From a virus: a stretch of DNA of 62,733 nucleotides. Where the stretch lies: the IMG/VR virus record IMGVR_UViG_3300009176_000006, positions 1-62,733 of that record; one strand, 5' to 3'. The translations under genes were made by a program, and so were the position numbers. The notes under the pieces are model-generated. The model did no database searches, was not told the origin of the DNA, and saw nothing but the letters and a program-made list of their open reading frames with translations. This document shows, piece by piece, positions 981-58,300 of the stretch. The first letter of the stretch is position 1. Every line of letters starts with the position of its first letter.

Positions 981-1478
981 TCAGGACACGAAGCCGGGGA
1001 ACATCGGGTGCAGGGCACGGTGGGTGCGGGCCGTGGCGTTGTAGCCCGCGAGCATGAAGTTGTTCGGCCGCTGGCCCCGGACCCGCAGGTGCAGGCCGTT
1101 GCGGGAGTCCGACAGCCGCATCCACATGCCGGTGGTGTCGATGCCGACGTTGCCGACCAGCCGGGACTTCACCGCCGACTCGAAACCGGGGTGCCGGTAG
1201 ATGTAGCCGGTTCCGCCTCCTGCGGTGCCGTGGATCACGTACGGGGTGTGCGGTGCGGTGGAGGAGACGACGGCGTCCAGCACCCGCAGGCTGGGGGCGT
1301 CCTGGTCGAAGTCCAGGGTGATCCCGGCCTTGAGGGCTCCGGTGCGCTCGGGCGCGTTGTGCACCGTGTTCTGGTAGAGCCGGTTGCCGACGCCGATCAT
1401 CCACCGGTGGACCAGGCCGTTGCCGACGTACAGTCCCTCGTCGATCACCACGACACGCTCGAACTCGAGGACGATCAC
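981..1478 (-). CDS. Tail completion / neck protein (HK97 gp10-like)
   Basis: 165 residues. The GTG start at 1478 overlaps the preceding stop (GTGA). The motif NAPERTGALKAGI followed some 35 residues later by APHTPYVIHGT matches the shape of HK97 gp10-like neck proteins, which join head and tail. It is the last of three connector genes between the major tail protein and the tail chaperones. The exact connector role is inferred from position and motif. Confidence 0.55.
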   Translation of the reverse strand: MIVLEFERVVVIDEGLYVGNGLVHRWMIGVGNRLYQNTVHNAPERTGALKAGITLDFDQDAPSLRVLDAVVSSTAPHTPYVIHGTAGGGTGYIYRHPGFESAVKSRLVGNVGIDTTGMWMRLSDSRNGLHLRVRGQRPNNFMLAGYNATARTHRALHPMFPGFVS

Positions 1479-14617: not shown

Positions 14618-14664
14618 CCAAGGCTCCTGTTAGGTCTGCTACTAGGACGGAGTGTGGCACAGGC

Positions 14665-14784
14665 TCAGGTGCAGACACGGCAGGAGCAGTCGACGACACA
14701 CTGGTACGTGTCGTTCCACGCCTCCCCGTCGCACTTCTCGTGGTTCCCCCGGACGCACTCCTCGCAGGGGACTTCGACGCCCAT
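14665..14784 (-). CDS. Small Cys-rich protein
   Basis: 39 residues, too short for most gene finders. The ATG at 14784 shares its A with the TAA of the membrane gene (TAATG). It reads MGVEVPCEECVRGNHEKC and ends CVVDCSCRVCT, giving seven cysteines and a His suited to metal binding. No family recognised. Confidence 0.55.
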   Translation of the reverse strand: MGVEVPCEECVRGNHEKCDGEAWNDTYQCVVDCSCRVCT

Positions 14785-15110
14785 TACTCAGGCTGGTCGT
14801 AGGCGACGACGATGGCGGCCAGGTAGGAGCAGGCCCACCAGGCGTTGGGGACCAGCCACCAGATCAGGAACCCGTTGGTGCTGGTGTTGTTGTAGACCAG
14901 GAGGAACCAGGCGATCTGTCCGGCCATCAGGTACGGGGCCACACAGAAGGGGCAGACCACCAGTTCGGCCCAGCCTTTCAGCTTCGCCGCGATCCTGGGA
15001 CGCGCCCACTCCATCGGAGGCCAGGTGTCGTGGGTGATCAGGCGGGCTGTCCGCGCCACCGAGAGCACGCCGATGATCACCCACACCACCGGGTGCAACA
15101 GGAAGTCCAT
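14784..15110 (-). CDS. Membrane protein, DUF1360-like
   Basis: 108 residues, ATG 15110 behind AGAGGAGAG, 13 bases after palindrome P3. It has an N-terminal membrane segment (LHPVVWVIIGVLSVARTARL), then the motif RLITHDTWPP and ELVVCPFCVAPYLMAGQIAW, and a second hydrophobic region near the C-terminus. The DTWPP and CPFC pattern is that of DUF1360 membrane proteins. Function unknown. Confidence 0.65.
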   Translation of the reverse strand: MDFLLHPVVWVIIGVLSVARTARLITHDTWPPMEWARPRIAAKLKGWAELVVCPFCVAPYLMAGQIAWFLLVYNNTSTNGFLIWWLVPNAWWACSYLAAIVVAYDQPE

Positions 15111-27684: not shown

Positions 27685-27713
27685 GCCCCCCGCTCCCCCC
27701 CGGAGCGGGGGGC
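27685..27713 (+). terminator. 12-bp GC hairpin after the first rightward gene
   Basis: GCCCCCCGCTCC pairs perfectly with GGAGCGGGGGGC around a five-C loop, 27 bases after the stop. No U tract follows, but a second hairpin follows within 10 bases. Confidence 0.6.
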
Positions 27714-27720
27714 ACCCCCG

Positions 27721-27754
27721 TCCACCCCGGGCGCCCCGTGCGTCGCGGGGTGGA
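27721..27754 (+). terminator. 9-bp hairpin with T-rich tail
   Basis: TCCACCCCG (27721-27729) pairs with CGGGGTGGA (27746-27754), followed by CGTGTCTTTCC. With the preceding hairpin it makes a likely tandem terminator. The next palindrome (27793) starts a new block of genes. Confidence 0.5.
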
Positions 27755-27792
27755 CGTGTCTTTCCGGTCCCAGCTCGGACGTCGGGACGTTG

Positions 27793-27809
27793 TTTGACCA
27801 GTGGTCAAA
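27793..27809. promoter_or_regulatory. Palindrome P5, TTTGACCAGTGGTCAAA
   Basis: Exact consensus copy, 67 bases before ATG 27877 and downstream of a tandem terminator. Confidence 0.85.
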
Positions 27810-27876
27810 CCGCGTGCCAACGGTTGAGCAACCGCCAACCGTCAACCGCTCGACGCTCAACAGAGGGAGCAACGAG

Positions 27877-30326: not shown

Positions 30327-30428
30327 TTGCCCAACCAACCGAACTGGCCGCACTTGCCTAAGGAACCCAACCCTGGGAGACTAGAGGGGTGGGTGAGTGC
30401 TGCCCCAACAGGTTCCCCGAACCGCCGG

Positions 30429-30445
30429 TTTGACCAGTGGTCAAA
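30429..30445. promoter_or_regulatory. Palindrome P8, TTTGACCAGTGGTCAAA
   Basis: Exact consensus copy in the long gap 30327-30679, upstream of the folded leader. Confidence 0.85.
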
Positions 30446-30503
30446 CAACCCGCTCTGCATGGCTGCGGCGGATGGCGGGGAGGGGAATCTGCCGTCGGAC
30501 CAA

Positions 30504-30650
30504 CGCTCCTTCGAGGGGTAGGAGCGAGGGTCAGGTAGCCGACCGCCATCGGGGGATGCGGTCGGTGTGGTTCGACTCCACCGGCGGCACGGAGAGGTCC
30601 CATACCTCTCTACCAGGCCCGACCCTGCTTCTTCCGGGGTCGGGCCTGGT
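30504..30650 (+). ncRNA. Candidate structured leader RNA / attenuator
   Basis: The gap 30327-30679 has no credible gene. Within it five hairpins follow one another: CGCTCCT/AGGAGCG (30504-30526), CCGACCGC/GCGGTCGG with an inner ATC/GAT (30539-30565), GTGG-TTCGACT-CCAC (30567-30581), GAGAGG/CCTCTC (30592-30610), and a perfect 14-bp stem (30612-30650). Alternative pairings exist: GTCGG at 30494-30498 can pair with 30539-30543. The last stem ends 15 bases before the ribosome site of the next gene, leaving no room for a promoter, so the stem is probably transcribed as part of that gene's leader. Confidence 0.5.
30612..30650 (+). terminator. 14-bp hairpin, possible attenuator
   Basis: ACCAGGCCCGACCC pairs perfectly with GGGTCGGGCCTGGT around an 11-base loop, followed by CCGTTCTC. 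GC-rich, with a weak T tail. The GAGAGGAGCAACCA ribosome site of the next gene begins about 15 bases on. Confidence 0.55.
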
Positions 30651-30679
30651 CCGTTCTCATCCAACGAGAGGAGCAACCA

Positions 30680-32062
30680 ATGGATGAGTACCTGACCGCA
30701 GCCACCGACAACGGCTGGGTCTACGTCGGGAACAAGGCGGGTCACGCCGTCTACCACGACGCCGACGGGAAGGAGGTGTACCTGGAGTTCAAGACCCGCA
30801 AGGTCCGGCGAACCGCCGAGTGGTGGCTGGCCAACGACCCCCGTGCGCTGACCCTCGACTACTGGTGGGAGATGAACCACGAGCGGATGGTCGAGAAGTG
30901 GGGCGAGAAGGTGCTCGACCCGACGAGCCTCCGGTTCTGCCACCAGTGCCGGTGGGTACGGCTCGCCAGCAACTTCACCGACGACGAGTACGACTGGTGC
31001 GACTCGTGCGTCAGTACGCTGCCGACCTGCCCACGGTGCGACACCCGGTGCGGCTACCTGTACACGGTCCTCGGCGGGCACACCCTGTGCGAGCCATGCC
31101 GGGACGACCTCTGCCACTGGTGCGAGGGGTGCGAGGAGCACTACCTGCGCGAAGACTCCGACCTGCACCGTCACGCCGGATGCGAGTGCGAGTCGCCGCG
31201 TCAGACGTTCACGATCCGCAACGACGGGCACCCCCGTCTGGCCAACGACACCAGGGTCAAGGTCTCCCTGCCCGCCGGGGTGATCAGCGACGAGGGGATC
31301 GGGGAGATCGCCCGGTATCTCCGCGACGTGGGGCTGGGGTTCTTCGACTCCACCAACCGGCGTAACTACGCCCTGCTGTCCTACAACCTGGCCGAGATCG
31401 GGTTGAAGTGGCAGATGAAGGACGGCAACTACACCAAGCGGCTCAGCCGGTACGCCTACCAGCGGTACGGGCTCAAGCTCTCGCCCGACGTGATGTCGCA
31501 GATCGGCAACATCGGCAGCGACCACTCGCGGGGGATCGACTTCGACGTCGAGGTGACCCGCAACCTGAACCTGCCGAGGGAGGAGTTCGCCAACGAGGGC
31601 TCCTGCTGGTGGACCGACTACGCGGACTCGAGGTGCGCGTTCAAGTCCAACGGTGGGTTCGGTCTGCGGACCTTCACCGAACCCAACATCAACGGCCATT
31701 CGTACTGCAACGGCCGGGCCTGGGTGATCCCGCTCAGGTGGGACGTCGAGTACGAGCGCCTGGTGCAGACGTTCGACACCGACACCCCGACCGGGTTCAT
31801 CACCTTCAACGGCTACGGCACGCTCGAGGGCTACACCGCACCCCGCCTGCTCGGGCACATGGTGGGCCTGACCTACCGGAAGATCGTCTTCCACACCGGC
31901 GACGACGAGTCGGGCATGTACGTCAACAGCGACATCGGCTACCTGGTGGCACCGGAGTCCATCGCCGACCGCTACAACGAGAGCGGTGAGCGATCCACCT
32001 CGCTCATCCTCGACTGCCCCACCCACGCAACACTCATCGAGAAGGAGAGCAGCCATGTTTGA
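30680..32062 (+). CDS. 460-residue protein with N-terminal Cys-rich domain, unknown
   Basis: ATG 30680 behind GAGAGGAGCAACCA. Residues ~85-175 hold a dense set of CxxC pairs (FCHQC, WCDSC, TCPRCDTRC, LCEPC, LCHWCEGCEEHY, CECES), enough for several zinc sites in a RING/zinc-ribbon style. The C-terminal ~270 residues are a separate alpha/beta domain with VISDEGIGEIARYLRDVGLG, an aromatic SCWWTDYADSRCAF and ITFNGYGTLEGY. The stop codon lies inside palindrome P9 and overlaps the start of the peptidase gene, so the two are coupled. Not a family I can name. Confidence 0.6.
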   Translation: MDEYLTAATDNGWVYVGNKAGHAVYHDADGKEVYLEFKTRKVRRTAEWWLANDPRALTLDYWWEMNHERMVEKWGEKVLDPTSLRFCHQCRWVRLASNFTDDEYDWCDSCVSTLPTCPRCDTRCGYLYTVLGGHTLCEPCRDDLCHWCEGCEEHYLREDSDLHRHAGCECESPRQTFTIRNDGHPRLANDTRVKVSLPAGVISDEGIGEIARYLRDVGLGFFDSTNRRNYALLSYNLAEIGLKWQMKDGNYTKRLSRYAYQRYGLKLSPDVMSQIGNIGSDHSRGIDFDVEVTRNLNLPREEFANEGSCWWTDYADSRCAFKSNGGFGLRTFTEPNINGHSYCNGRAWVIPLRWDVEYERLVQTFDTDTPTGFITFNGYGTLEGYTAPRLLGHMVGLTYRKIVFHTGDDESGMYVNSDIGYLVAPESIADRYNESGERSTSLILDCPTHATLIEKESSHV

Positions 32063-33203
32063 CCAGAGGTCAAAGAAGAACGGCCCGAACAAGGGCAAGA
32101 AGAACAAGAAGAACACGCCCACCGAGCCCGGCTGGTGGGCCAGGGAGAAGGCGGACAGGGAACGGCAGAAGGCCGGGGTCGACCTGGCCTGGTCGGGCTT
32201 CGACCGCCGTGCTCTCCAGCGGGTGTGCGAGGCGCACGAGACCTCGTTCGGTGACGCCTACGACATGGAGAAGTGGGTGGTCGCAAGCCGGAAGGGACGC
32301 GACGACTTCTTCTACTACAAGAACAACGGCTCCGACACCCTGTTCGTGGCACACCTGGACACGGTGGTCTTCGACGACGAGCGACAGACCGACTTCGCCG
32401 AGACCGCCGCCGGCCTGGTCGTCCACTCCGGTGCGCTCGACGACAGGCTCGGCGCCTACATCGGGCTCGAGCTGCTGCCCCGGCTGGGGATCAAGCACGA
32501 CTGGCTGCTCACCGTCGGTGAGGAGTCGGGCCGGTCGACCGCCGAGTTCTTCCCGGCCTCGATCAAGAAGGCGTACGACTGGATCATCGAGTTCGACCGG
32601 GGCGGCACCGACGTGGTGATGTACGAGTACGAGGACGACGACGTGGTCGACCTGGTCGAGGACGTCGGGGCGAAGGTGGGGCTCGGTTCGTTCACCGACA
32701 TCTGCTACCTGGAGGACCTCGGCTGCAAGGGGTTCAACTGGGGCGTCGGCTACCAGGACTACCACTGCACCAGGGGGTACGCCTACCTGGAGGACACGAT
32801 GGGGATGGTGGCCCGCTATCTGCGGTTCCACGAGAACAACGTCGGTCACTACATGCCGCACGTCAAGAAGCCGAAGTACACCTACGCCTACGGAGGCGGG
32901 TACTCCGGCGGTGGGGGTGGCGGCTGGACCGACGACGACGACGTCACCTCGTGGGGCGGCTACCGGTGGAACAACACCACCAAGCAGTGGGACCCGGTCG
33001 ACCCGGTGGTCGACGCCGAGTCGGACATCCTGTCCGCCGACGAGCAACTGCTGCGGGACAAGATCGAGGAGTTCACCGGCAGGAAGCTCGACGACCTCAC
33101 CGACGAGGAGACGGCGGAGGCGGTGGCCGACATGGCCGAGTCCGGCTACCTGTCACAGCGGATCATCGGTGAGATCGAGTCCAACGTGGTGAGTTCGTCA
33201 TGA
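32055..33203 (+). CDS. Zinc peptidase-like protein (M20/M28/M42 aminopeptidase superfamily)
   Basis: 382 residues, ATG 32055 behind GAAGGAGAG. The metal-ligand series of co-catalytic zinc exopeptidases is complete: H100 and D102 in FVAHLDTV, bridging D129 in GALDDRLGAY, E156-E157 in LTVGEESGR, D181 in IIEFDRGG, and H237 in YQDYHCTRGYAYLED. The ALDDRLG box is closest to M42. The first 25 residues are Lys-rich, and the tail after ~265 is Tyr/Gly- and Asp-rich. The substrate is unknown. Palindrome P9 is read as codons 2-7. Confidence 0.7.
   Translation: MFDQRSKKNGPNKGKKNKKNTPTEPGWWAREKADRERQKAGVDLAWSGFDRRALQRVCEAHETSFGDAYDMEKWVVASRKGRDDFFYYKNNGSDTLFVAHLDTVVFDDERQTDFAETAAGLVVHSGALDDRLGAYIGLELLPRLGIKHDWLLTVGEESGRSTAEFFPASIKKAYDWIIEFDRGGTDVVMYEYEDDDVVDLVEDVGAKVGLGSFTDICYLEDLGCKGFNWGVGYQDYHCTRGYAYLEDTMGMVARYLRFHENNVGHYMPHVKKPKYTYAYGGGYSGGGGGGWTDDDDVTSWGGYRWNNTTKQWDPVDPVVDAESDILSADEQLLRDKIEEFTGRKLDDLTDEETAEAVADMAESGYLSQRIIGEIESNVVSSS
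32058..32074. promoter_or_regulatory. Palindrome P9, TTTGACCAGAGGTCAAA, next to a start codon
   Basis: The dyad begins directly after ATG 32055-32057 and contains the stop of the preceding gene (TGA 32060-32062). Inner spacer AGA instead of AST. Binding here would block initiation of the peptidase directly. Confidence 0.75.
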
Positions 33204-33691: not shown

Positions 33692-33786
33692 CCGAGCCCG
33701 GAGCATCATCACCGGCTCCTGTTTGCTCCCTCTGTCGGGGGCCGGTGGTGGTGCCCTGGGACACCAGGAACAGAGAGGAGAAAGAG

Positions 33787-55355: not shown

Positions 55356-58300
55356 ACCGCTGCCTCCTGTGCAGCCGACTCGGCGTCGGGGTCCTGGCCC
55401 TGGTTGGGGGCCGGGCTCATCGTCACCCGTACCTGCTCCTTGCCCGCCTCCTCGATCACCTGGACCATGTCCAGCTTCTGCCACTGGCTGATCTCGATCA
55501 CGGTGCCCTGGGCGCGCAGCGGGATCCAGACGCCGGGCACGAGCTGGTTGATCCCGACCGGGGTCTCCGGCACCAGCATCGAGTTGTCGGGGACCCGGAC
55601 GATGTAGGGCGCCGGGTAGCGGGAGGCGATGCCGCGCTTCGCCTGCTCCAGCAGCACCTTCACCACCGCCTCCTGCTGGGCGGGGGTCATGGTGGCGGCG
55701 TCGGTGGCAGCGTTCTCGTTGAACGCCGACACCAGGATCTCGACCCCGCCGTACGGGGAGTCCTCGTGCTCGACGGCAGCGTAGAGCCCGGCGTTGTTGG
55801 TGACCGCGTAGTAGTCGGCGAGCAGCATCCCGTACTCGGTGATCTTCGGGGGGTCGTCGAAGTATTCGGACCGGAACTCCGGCAGCCTGCCGATCGGGCG
55901 GTGGGTGTCGTTGAGGATGATCCGCCGGCCGATGGTGGAGTAGTCGAGCCCGGCGTTGGCAGCCAGGTCGTCCAGCTCCTCCCACGCCGTCTTGGCGAAG
56001 TCGGGCTGGGTGCGGGACTCGCGGGCGTCGTCGGGGAACGTGAACAGGGTGACGTAGGGCAGCACGTTCGGGTCGTTGCGGGCCAGAGCGTCGGCGATCA
56101 GCAGGCCACCGCGCTCGACCACGGTGAGCAACCCCTCCTCGACGCCGTTGACGGTGTGGAAGGCGTCGTTGTAGCCCTGCCGCATGATCCGCCGGTAGAC
56201 GTAGCCCATCACGTCCTTGGCCTCGATGGTGAACCCTTCGGTGGAGTCCTCGATCAGGGTGATCGGCCCCTCCATCACGCGCTCTCCGTCACGGAACACG
56301 ACGAGCTCGTGGATCCAGGTGTGGGTGTCGGCGAGCAGGGCACCGCAGTCGTCGCCGAACCCGTTGGTGGTGATGATCATGTTGCCCAGGTCGTCACGCT
56401 TGCGGGTCCACTGCACCTTCGACAGCGGGGTGATCTCACCTCGGGGGACGATCCCGCCCCGGTCGTAGACGAACACCCGATGGGTGCCGCAGCCGAGGAC
56501 GCCCTGGTCCTCGGTGAGGTCGAAGGTGACCGGACCGGACAGGGAGCCGAGCCCGCCATGGGTGACGAACCGCTCGGAGTCCGACCAGTCCGACGGGTTC
56601 GGGTCGGTGGAGTGGTAGGTCCGCATCTGCCACTCGTAGTGGAGGCCGGGAACGAACGTGTCCTCGGGCACCGTCCAGGACCGGTCGCCTCCGGGCTCGG
56701 TGGTGTCGCCGAGCACCGTCACCCAGTCGGTGGTGCCGACCACCCGGAACCGGTAGTCGGCCTTGGTCTGGGTGACACCGGCGGTGGGGTCCCGGAAGTT
56801 CCACTGGAGCACCAGCGGGACGGTGACGTCGACCGCACGCATCCCGGTCGGGTACAGCAGCTTCGGCGGGTTGGCGTTGCCGAGGGAGAAGAACGAGCGG
56901 GGTGGTGCCCAGGGACCCCAGGCGTTCTGCCCGTCTCGGGTGCGCACCGTCCAGTCGTAGTAGACGCCGGACTTGAAGGTGCCGGGGTCGGCGGTGAAGT
57001 TGTCGAACGTGGTCCGCTTGCCGTGGGTGACCCAGGCTGCGGGCGGGTCATCGGCGGTCGCCGCCCGGCGCCACCGGATCTGGAACTCGGCCTGGCCGTC
57101 GCCGCTGTCCGGGTCGTGGTGCGCCCAGTCGAAGGTGACGGTGTCGGTGTCGAGGACCACGGCGTTGTCGCTGGGGGACTGGAGGTCCGGCTCGAGCGGG
57201 GGACGGTTGGTCCAGAAGTTGGCGCCGTTGTAGTTGCCGGAGTCCAGGCCCTTGGCGTCCTCGGCGTAGATGCGGAGGAAGTAGTGGGTGTTGGTGGACA
57301 GTCCGGTCAGCACCACCTCGGCCCGCTTGCCGGACTCGACCAGGTCGGAGCGGACGACGGCGGTGTTGGTGAACCTGCTCGACGCCGAGTAGCGGACCAG
57401 CAGCCGTACCTTCTGGTGCTTCTGGGTGGCCGGGTCGCCCGGCTTGTCGGGGTCCACGGTGGTGGAGTCGGAGTCCCGTACCACGGCGGAGACGGTGACC
57501 CTGCCGGTGGACTTGGTGGACAGCCCGTCGGCCTCCGGCTTGCCGTCGATCCGCACCTCCGACGGTGAGCCGGGAGGCTGGTTCGCGGGAGCCGGGGACA
57601 CCCAGGAGACGACGATGACGGCGTCGCCGGTGGTGCCGCCGCCCTGGTCGGAGGCAACGCCGGTGAACAGCCCGCCCGTGTAGTTGGAGCCGCCCGCTCC
57701 GCCGCCGCCAGGGGTGATGCCGATCAGTGCAGCCGCCCCGCCGCCACCGGCGTGGTAGCCGCCACCTCCACCGCCGCCGCCGTGGGTGTTCTGGCTGGGC
57801 CACTCGCCGCCCTTGCCGCCTCGGGTGAGGGTGGTGTCGGTGGCGTTCCCGCCGGACAGGCTGGCGTCCGCTCCGGACACGCCGCCGTTGCCGCCCTGGG
57901 TCTGGGTGCCACCGGTGGCGTTGCCGACCTGTCCGGTCCCGGCGTTGCCGAGCGAGCCGTGCAGACCGGTGGCCGCGCCGCCGTGCCCGCCCTCGCCGCT
58001 GTCGCCGGACGACCCGCCTGCCCCACCGGCGACCGCCTTGATCGAGCCGTCGCTGGAGTTCAGCCGGACCGCAGCCGCTCCGCCACCGCCTCTGCCGCCG
58101 TTGCGGCCGGTGGAGCCGTCACCCCCGGCCCCGCCCCCTCCGGCCGCCGTAGCCCCTCCGTTGCGCCCAGAAGCAGCCTTCCCGGCCTCGCCGACCAGCA
58201 GATACAGCACGTCGGTCTTCTTGACCTTGAGCTGTCCCCGGACCCGGCCACCGTGAGCCGCCCCGGAGCCCGCCCCCTTGAGGTCAAGGGTGACCCGGTC

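Follow-up and report, generated by a model that had tools for sequence, protein, structure and literature searches.

A predicted tRNA-like leader ahead of a cysteine-rich phage gene, with analogues in other viruses

INTRODUCTION

The known cis-acting tRNA-like leaders comprise one riboswitch class and scattered substrates of RNase P. The yjdF riboswitch is a tRNA-like leader that by hypothesis controls translation, and in vitro, tRNAs placed in mRNA leaders increase translation by a factor of 2 to 6.3 (PMC9142559). RNase P recognizes the T-loop, measures a 12–base pair (bp) stack, and cleaves minimal hairpins made of an acceptor and a T-arm; it also cuts the phage M3 RNA, the phage C4 RNA, and one mRNA of phage T4 (PMC11143913). 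The M3 RNA, the C4 antisense RNA, and the T4 gene 32 mRNA are thus non-tRNA phage RNAs that the enzyme accepts as tRNA-like (PMC11143913).

Here, we analyze the leader of a cysteine-rich (Cys-rich) gene in a virus sequence. Like yjdF, this leader places a four-way junction of tRNA-like design ahead of a start codon. Unlike yjdF, it has no Rfam match, long stems form its arms A and B, and it lacks a D-loop. The off state of yjdF is a pairing of the T-loop with the Shine-Dalgarno sequence; this pairing is not found in the leader, where the start codon lies in a separate hairpin. Next to the M3, C4, and T4 substrates, the leader is a candidate by its predicted fold; it has no CCA and differs from them in sequence and phage type.

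RESULTS

The window, by which we mean the whole stretch of DNA that was analyzed, is a virus record of 62,733 bases with a G+C content of 0.67 and a 123-bp direct terminal repeat. Early genes occupy the plus strand beyond about 26.8 kb, while the head genes lie on the minus strand. The portal is 33 to 55% identical to portals in other soil virus contigs and about 37% identical to those of Microbacterium and Arthrobacter phages. Because of this likeness, we take the window to be an actinophage. The palindrome TTTGACCNNNGGTCAAA occurs 14 times in the window, against 0.09 copies expected, and mostly at gene borders (positions 961, 11672, 15124, 26625, 27793, 28662, 29261, 30429, 32058, 34321, 36603, 39447, 42423, and 54918). 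Judged by sequence, these sites are probably repressor operators or stoperators. One of the 14, the 17-bp palindrome TTTGACCAGTGGTCAAA (30429 to 30445, unstranded), is just ahead of the leader. The pairs 26625/27793 and 29261/30429 have the same spacing, 1168 bp each.

The gene that follows the leader (30680 to 32062, plus strand) encodes a Cys-rich protein of 460 amino acids with homologues in large phages. No relative was found for it in Pfam or PHROG, nor a convincing one in the PDB, and its AlphaFold model (pLDDT 47) is too poor for use. An M42/M20-like peptidase protein is encoded next (32055 to 33203, plus strand), and the two genes are linked in other phages: Cys-rich homologues occur in virus contigs of 46 to 164 kb, with the peptidase partner in at least three. 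The two genes adjoin in several unrelated large phages (30680 to 33203 in the window; L007, L008, and L009 elsewhere), and in L009 the peptidase gene is surrounded by three Cys-rich copies.

The fold of the leader, its excess stability, its T-arm, and its start-codon hairpin were all computed. The leader (30490 to 30691) is strongly over-folded: the stretch 30484 to 30680 has a minimum free energy (MFE) of −111.7 kcal/mol, compared with −82.7 ± 4.3 kcal/mol in 200 dinucleotide shuffles, none of which was as stable (z = −6.8). Among 785 blocks of 160 nucleotides (nt) from both strands of the window, the leader block ranks second in excess stability (−31 kcal/mol; mean of all blocks −3.2, SD 5.9); the most over-folded block is 27685 to 27844. 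The initial annotation of this region had proposed a structured leader or new RNA element and had named dinucleotide shuffles as a yardstick. By that yardstick, the leader is far more stable than chance, and the proposal is supported. It had also stated that no reading frame explains the region, and we find the same: a G+C-frame gene call picks none in the intergenic stretch 30327 to 30679, which is crossed by mechanical open reading frames only.

The MFE structure, the centroid, and the pair probabilities (mostly 0.9 to 1.0) agree on a closed tRNA-like four-way junction at 30490 to 30589 (plus strand), a cloverleaf with no anticodon loop. Its acceptor-like stem, P1, pairs UGCCGUCG (30490 to 30497) with CGGCGGCA (30582 to 30589), after which CG comes next. 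Arm A (30498 to 30532; GACC/GGUC plus an inner CGCUCC/GGAGCG stem) takes the position of the D-arm. Five unpaired bases separate it from arm B (30538 to 30566; a 12-bp stem with one bulge and a GGGG loop), which takes the position of the anticodon arm and is followed by the T-arm GUGG-UUCGACU-CCAC (30567 to 30581), with a 4-bp stem and a loop that fits the tRNA T-loop consensus. There are otherwise no unpaired bases in the junction, and pair probabilities are 0.79 to 1.0 in P1 and 0.97 to 0.98 in the T-arm. The five hairpins described initially are all present, but the first three are arms of this one junction rather than separate hairpins. The feature also begins earlier than first annotated, at 30490, since the 8-bp stem P1 closes those three.

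The 8 bp of P1 stack on the 4 bp of the T-arm, giving the same 12 bp as the acceptor plus T-stem of a tRNA, and the T-arm has a TTCRANY loop. The T-loop–like TTCGACT remarked on earlier (30571 to 30577) is an exact T-loop (UUCGACU) and forms part of the tRNA-like junction. In shuffled genomes, a T-loop with its stem and an abutting acceptor of at least 7 bp would turn up 0.035 times each; the window contains two, the leader and one other site. Given the T-arm, the acceptor stem by itself has a chance P of about 0.03. Taken by itself, this one case resembles a tRNA only moderately beyond chance, and its T-loop had been noticed ahead of the test. From the predicted fold, it is plausible that the core is a tRNA mimic, and we lean slightly toward this.

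The same P value of the acceptor stem would also suit ordinary intercistronic structure, that is, stable hairpins that insulate or stabilize the message and a T-loop that is coincidental. Very strong hairpins without a T-arm or a U-tract precede other early genes too (27685 to 27760 and 33700 to 33760), and no conservation of the leader was found. Ordinary structure fits less well with a whole 100-nt core that forms a single four-way junction in which hardly any junction base is left unpaired, with the exact T-loop, or with the similar elements in other viruses. We regard it as possible, if on the unlikely side.

At its normal threshold, ARAGORN found no tRNA gene in the leader. A seven-base anticodon loop is absent, as arm B is capped by GGGG; the core has no D-loop; and P1 is followed not by CCA or RCCA but by ACG, outside the canonical register. 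Odd phage tRNAs missed by ARAGORN do exist, and the core might be the remnant of one, or a stand-alone small RNA, unrelated to control of the next gene. The missing tRNA call and anticodon loop and the lack of a U-tract to end a small RNA make this decidedly unlikely, and neither arm A nor arm B, both long and perfect, looks like part of a decaying tRNA. The T-arm, the acceptor strand, and the mid-genome position would also suit an attP site that includes the 3′ half of a tRNA gene from the host. However, the 21-mer GTGGTTCGACTCCACCGGCGG is found in only three stretches among approximately 85,000 genomes, with a tRNA called at none of the three, and the 5′ acceptor strand is also in the phage. 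We give the attP reading hardly any credence. Bacterial Y RNA (YrlA) was rejected as a candidate, with no Rfam match and no Ro60 (TROVE) gene.

Two further hairpins follow the core on the plus strand: H4, of 8 bp in the predicted fold (30591 to 30611), and H5, of 16 bp in the same fold (30612 to 30650). H5 contains the perfect 14-bp stem of the initial annotation as 14 unbroken Watson-Crick pairs, to which a U·G and a G-C pair are added, and it does end 15 bases before the Shine-Dalgarno sequence GAGAGGAG (30666 to 30673), which was read in the sequence. A strong hairpin just ahead of a gene is what a transcription attenuator, as originally proposed, would have. But no U-tract follows H5, and the terminator scan of the leader made no call, although actinobacterial terminators without a U-tract are conceivable. 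The two strands of the proposed switch, GTCGG (30494 to 30498) and CCGAC (30539 to 30543), can pair, but forcing them to do so costs 12 kcal/mol, while the P1 pairs have probabilities of 0.79 to 1.0. Attenuation is not supported, and we consider it very unlikely.

The start codon itself lies in a hairpin that was missed in the initial annotation (30656 to 30688, plus strand). Here, CUCAUCCA (30656 to 30663) pairs with UGGAUGAG (30681 to 30688) in an 8-bp stem that includes the start codon, and the ribosome site is in the loop. This stem is the longest among 83 predicted starts (P = 0.004 in shuffles). Because the start codon is within it, control at translation appears to fit the leader better than termination does. 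H4 was rejected as an anti–Shine-Dalgarno sequence, with pairing between the leader and the Shine-Dalgarno at chance level (P = 0.45). A translational element of the yjdF kind, whose fold, possibly aided by a ligand, draws in the ribosome and unfolds the hairpin around the start codon, agrees with the four-way junction upstream of the start, with the start codon in its 8-bp stem, and with the enhancement of translation by cis-tRNA leaders in vitro (PMC9142559). Yet that nonsignificant Shine-Dalgarno pairing, the lack of an Rfam match and of a D-loop, and the absence of any known ligand make it an unlikely explanation. That the leader is a real cis element, strongly folded and equipped with a hairpin at the start codon, is well supported, and it probably does serve to control the Cys-rich gene.

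Homologous leaders were sought in several collections. Rfam, at the gathering score and at an E value of 10, returned no match to the leader beyond chance level. Nor was anything above chance found by BLASTN of the leader against phages and against 23 related virus records, or by a single-sequence covariance model run on the records of related phages. Relatives identified by the portal have structural genes in common with the window, and some also share SSB, primase, Rad52, and exonuclease; neither the leader nor the Cys-rich gene is present in them. The near-identical siblings that were found (99.7 to 100%) stop short of 30490. Homologues of the Cys-rich gene have no comparable leader ahead of them, so this leader is no constant component of the Cys-rich module.

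Related cases were located by searching virus contigs for the T-arm sequence. Judged by their sequences, the elements found are analogues of the leader, and none is a homologue. The phage G025 (also L058; 130.8 kb, G+C 0.67), in which ARAGORN makes one doubtful call, has eight T-arms with no anticodon between genes on the minus strand at 56577 to 67510, each on the gene strand. Several are 50 to 56 nt before a ribosome site and start, and several have CCA after the acceptor. Four of the eight have 7 to 8 Watson-Crick acceptor pairs at short distance (P = 0.0015 to 0.0095 each); the other four have no such stem. A further virus, G023 (L103, L115, L120, and L121), has five elements, likewise without an anticodon (14650 to 14734, 14842 to 14924, 119990 to 120052, 120161 to 120206, and approximately 122405). 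ACG occupies positions 73 to 75 in all five, compared with 5% of 679 phage tRNAs, and two of the five are near-copies, 190 bp apart, that differ in the inner arm. The element at 119990 to 120052 shares its arrangement with the leader: it is a four-way junction of 63 nt that includes a T-arm, and ACGG comes next, then a hairpin, with a start 46 nt downstream. Taken by itself, the acceptor of this element falls short of significance (P = 0.08), and some acceptors in both viruses are no better than chance.

Like the leader, the G023 and G025 elements precede a gene and have an acceptor on which the T-arm stacks, and a hairpin and a ribosome site come after them. The G023 element ends in ACGG, which also follows the core in the window, there one position off the canonical register. 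They differ from the leader in length (40 to 85 nt), in their insert (8 to 54 nt, compared with 69 nt in the leader), and in sequence, which is unrelated.

Similar shapes are found in L173, L249/L255, L179, and the haloarchaeal L158. Minus-strand minihelices of an acceptor and a T-arm lie at about 4335 in L158 (Halorubrum, NZ_WUAX01000005) and at about 2732 in the virus contig L179 (IMGVR 2706796002). Both have the layout GCCCCG or CCCCG, 9 to 10 nt, T-arm, and CGGGG, and both precede an ATG with an acidic coding sequence. L173 (IMGVR 2681812969) has three on the minus strand (6902, 7022, and 7195) with ACGGT in the insert, set within G+C-rich GGCAAGGC-like repeats. In addition, the left-end noncoding region of Arthrobacter phage Ranunculus (L155) holds an unannotated tRNA-like sequence (1150 to 1220, minus strand), with a T-arm and a terminator-like hairpin, that is not conserved among related phages.

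DISCUSSION

We tentatively propose, at rather less than even confidence, that this is a cis-acting, tRNA-mimicking leader of the Cys-rich gene that acts on mRNA processing and translation; here we infer tRNA mimicry as a function, a role for RNase P, and any regulation from the computed features. The core (30490 to 30589) would be a tRNA mimic: its closing stem stacks on the T-arm as happens in the upper half of that molecule, and long arms replace both the D-arm and the anticodon arm. Enzymes that act on this upper half, with RNase P as the first candidate, would bind the core and cut the early transcript near 30490. The cut would leave a message with its 5′ end capped by the core, H4, and H5, and the start-codon hairpin would then gate translation. 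As a second candidate, the leader may act directly on the ribosome; by either route, the message concerned would have its start codon within a hairpin.

The leader has the T-loop and the 12-bp stack of acceptor and T-arm by which RNase P knows its substrates, and it lacks a 3′ RCCA, with ACG after P1. Bacterial RNase P uses RCCA, which is helpful but not required in every substrate. By our analysis, processing of the leader by RNase P is a minority prospect, worth considering but doubtful. The main weakness of reading the leader as a tRNA mimic is that no homologous leader, from which covariation could be read, is present in any of the collections.

Of greater interest than this one leader are the anticodon-less elements of viruses as a wider class. 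These might represent an undescribed kind of viral mRNA element, in which structures mimicking a tRNA's upper half are placed before genes and recruit tRNA enzymes for processing or translation, although we hold this to be a speculative suggestion that is more probably wrong than right. Such a kind would span unrelated DNA viruses, among them actinophages and possibly a haloarchaeal virus. If DNA viruses do use anticodon-less tRNA mimics as routine gene punctuation, this would explain why the leader of this phage ends in a hidden start codon. It would also provide a simple way to process or boost viral messages by means of host tRNA enzymes, one that is invisible to tRNA finders and to Rfam.
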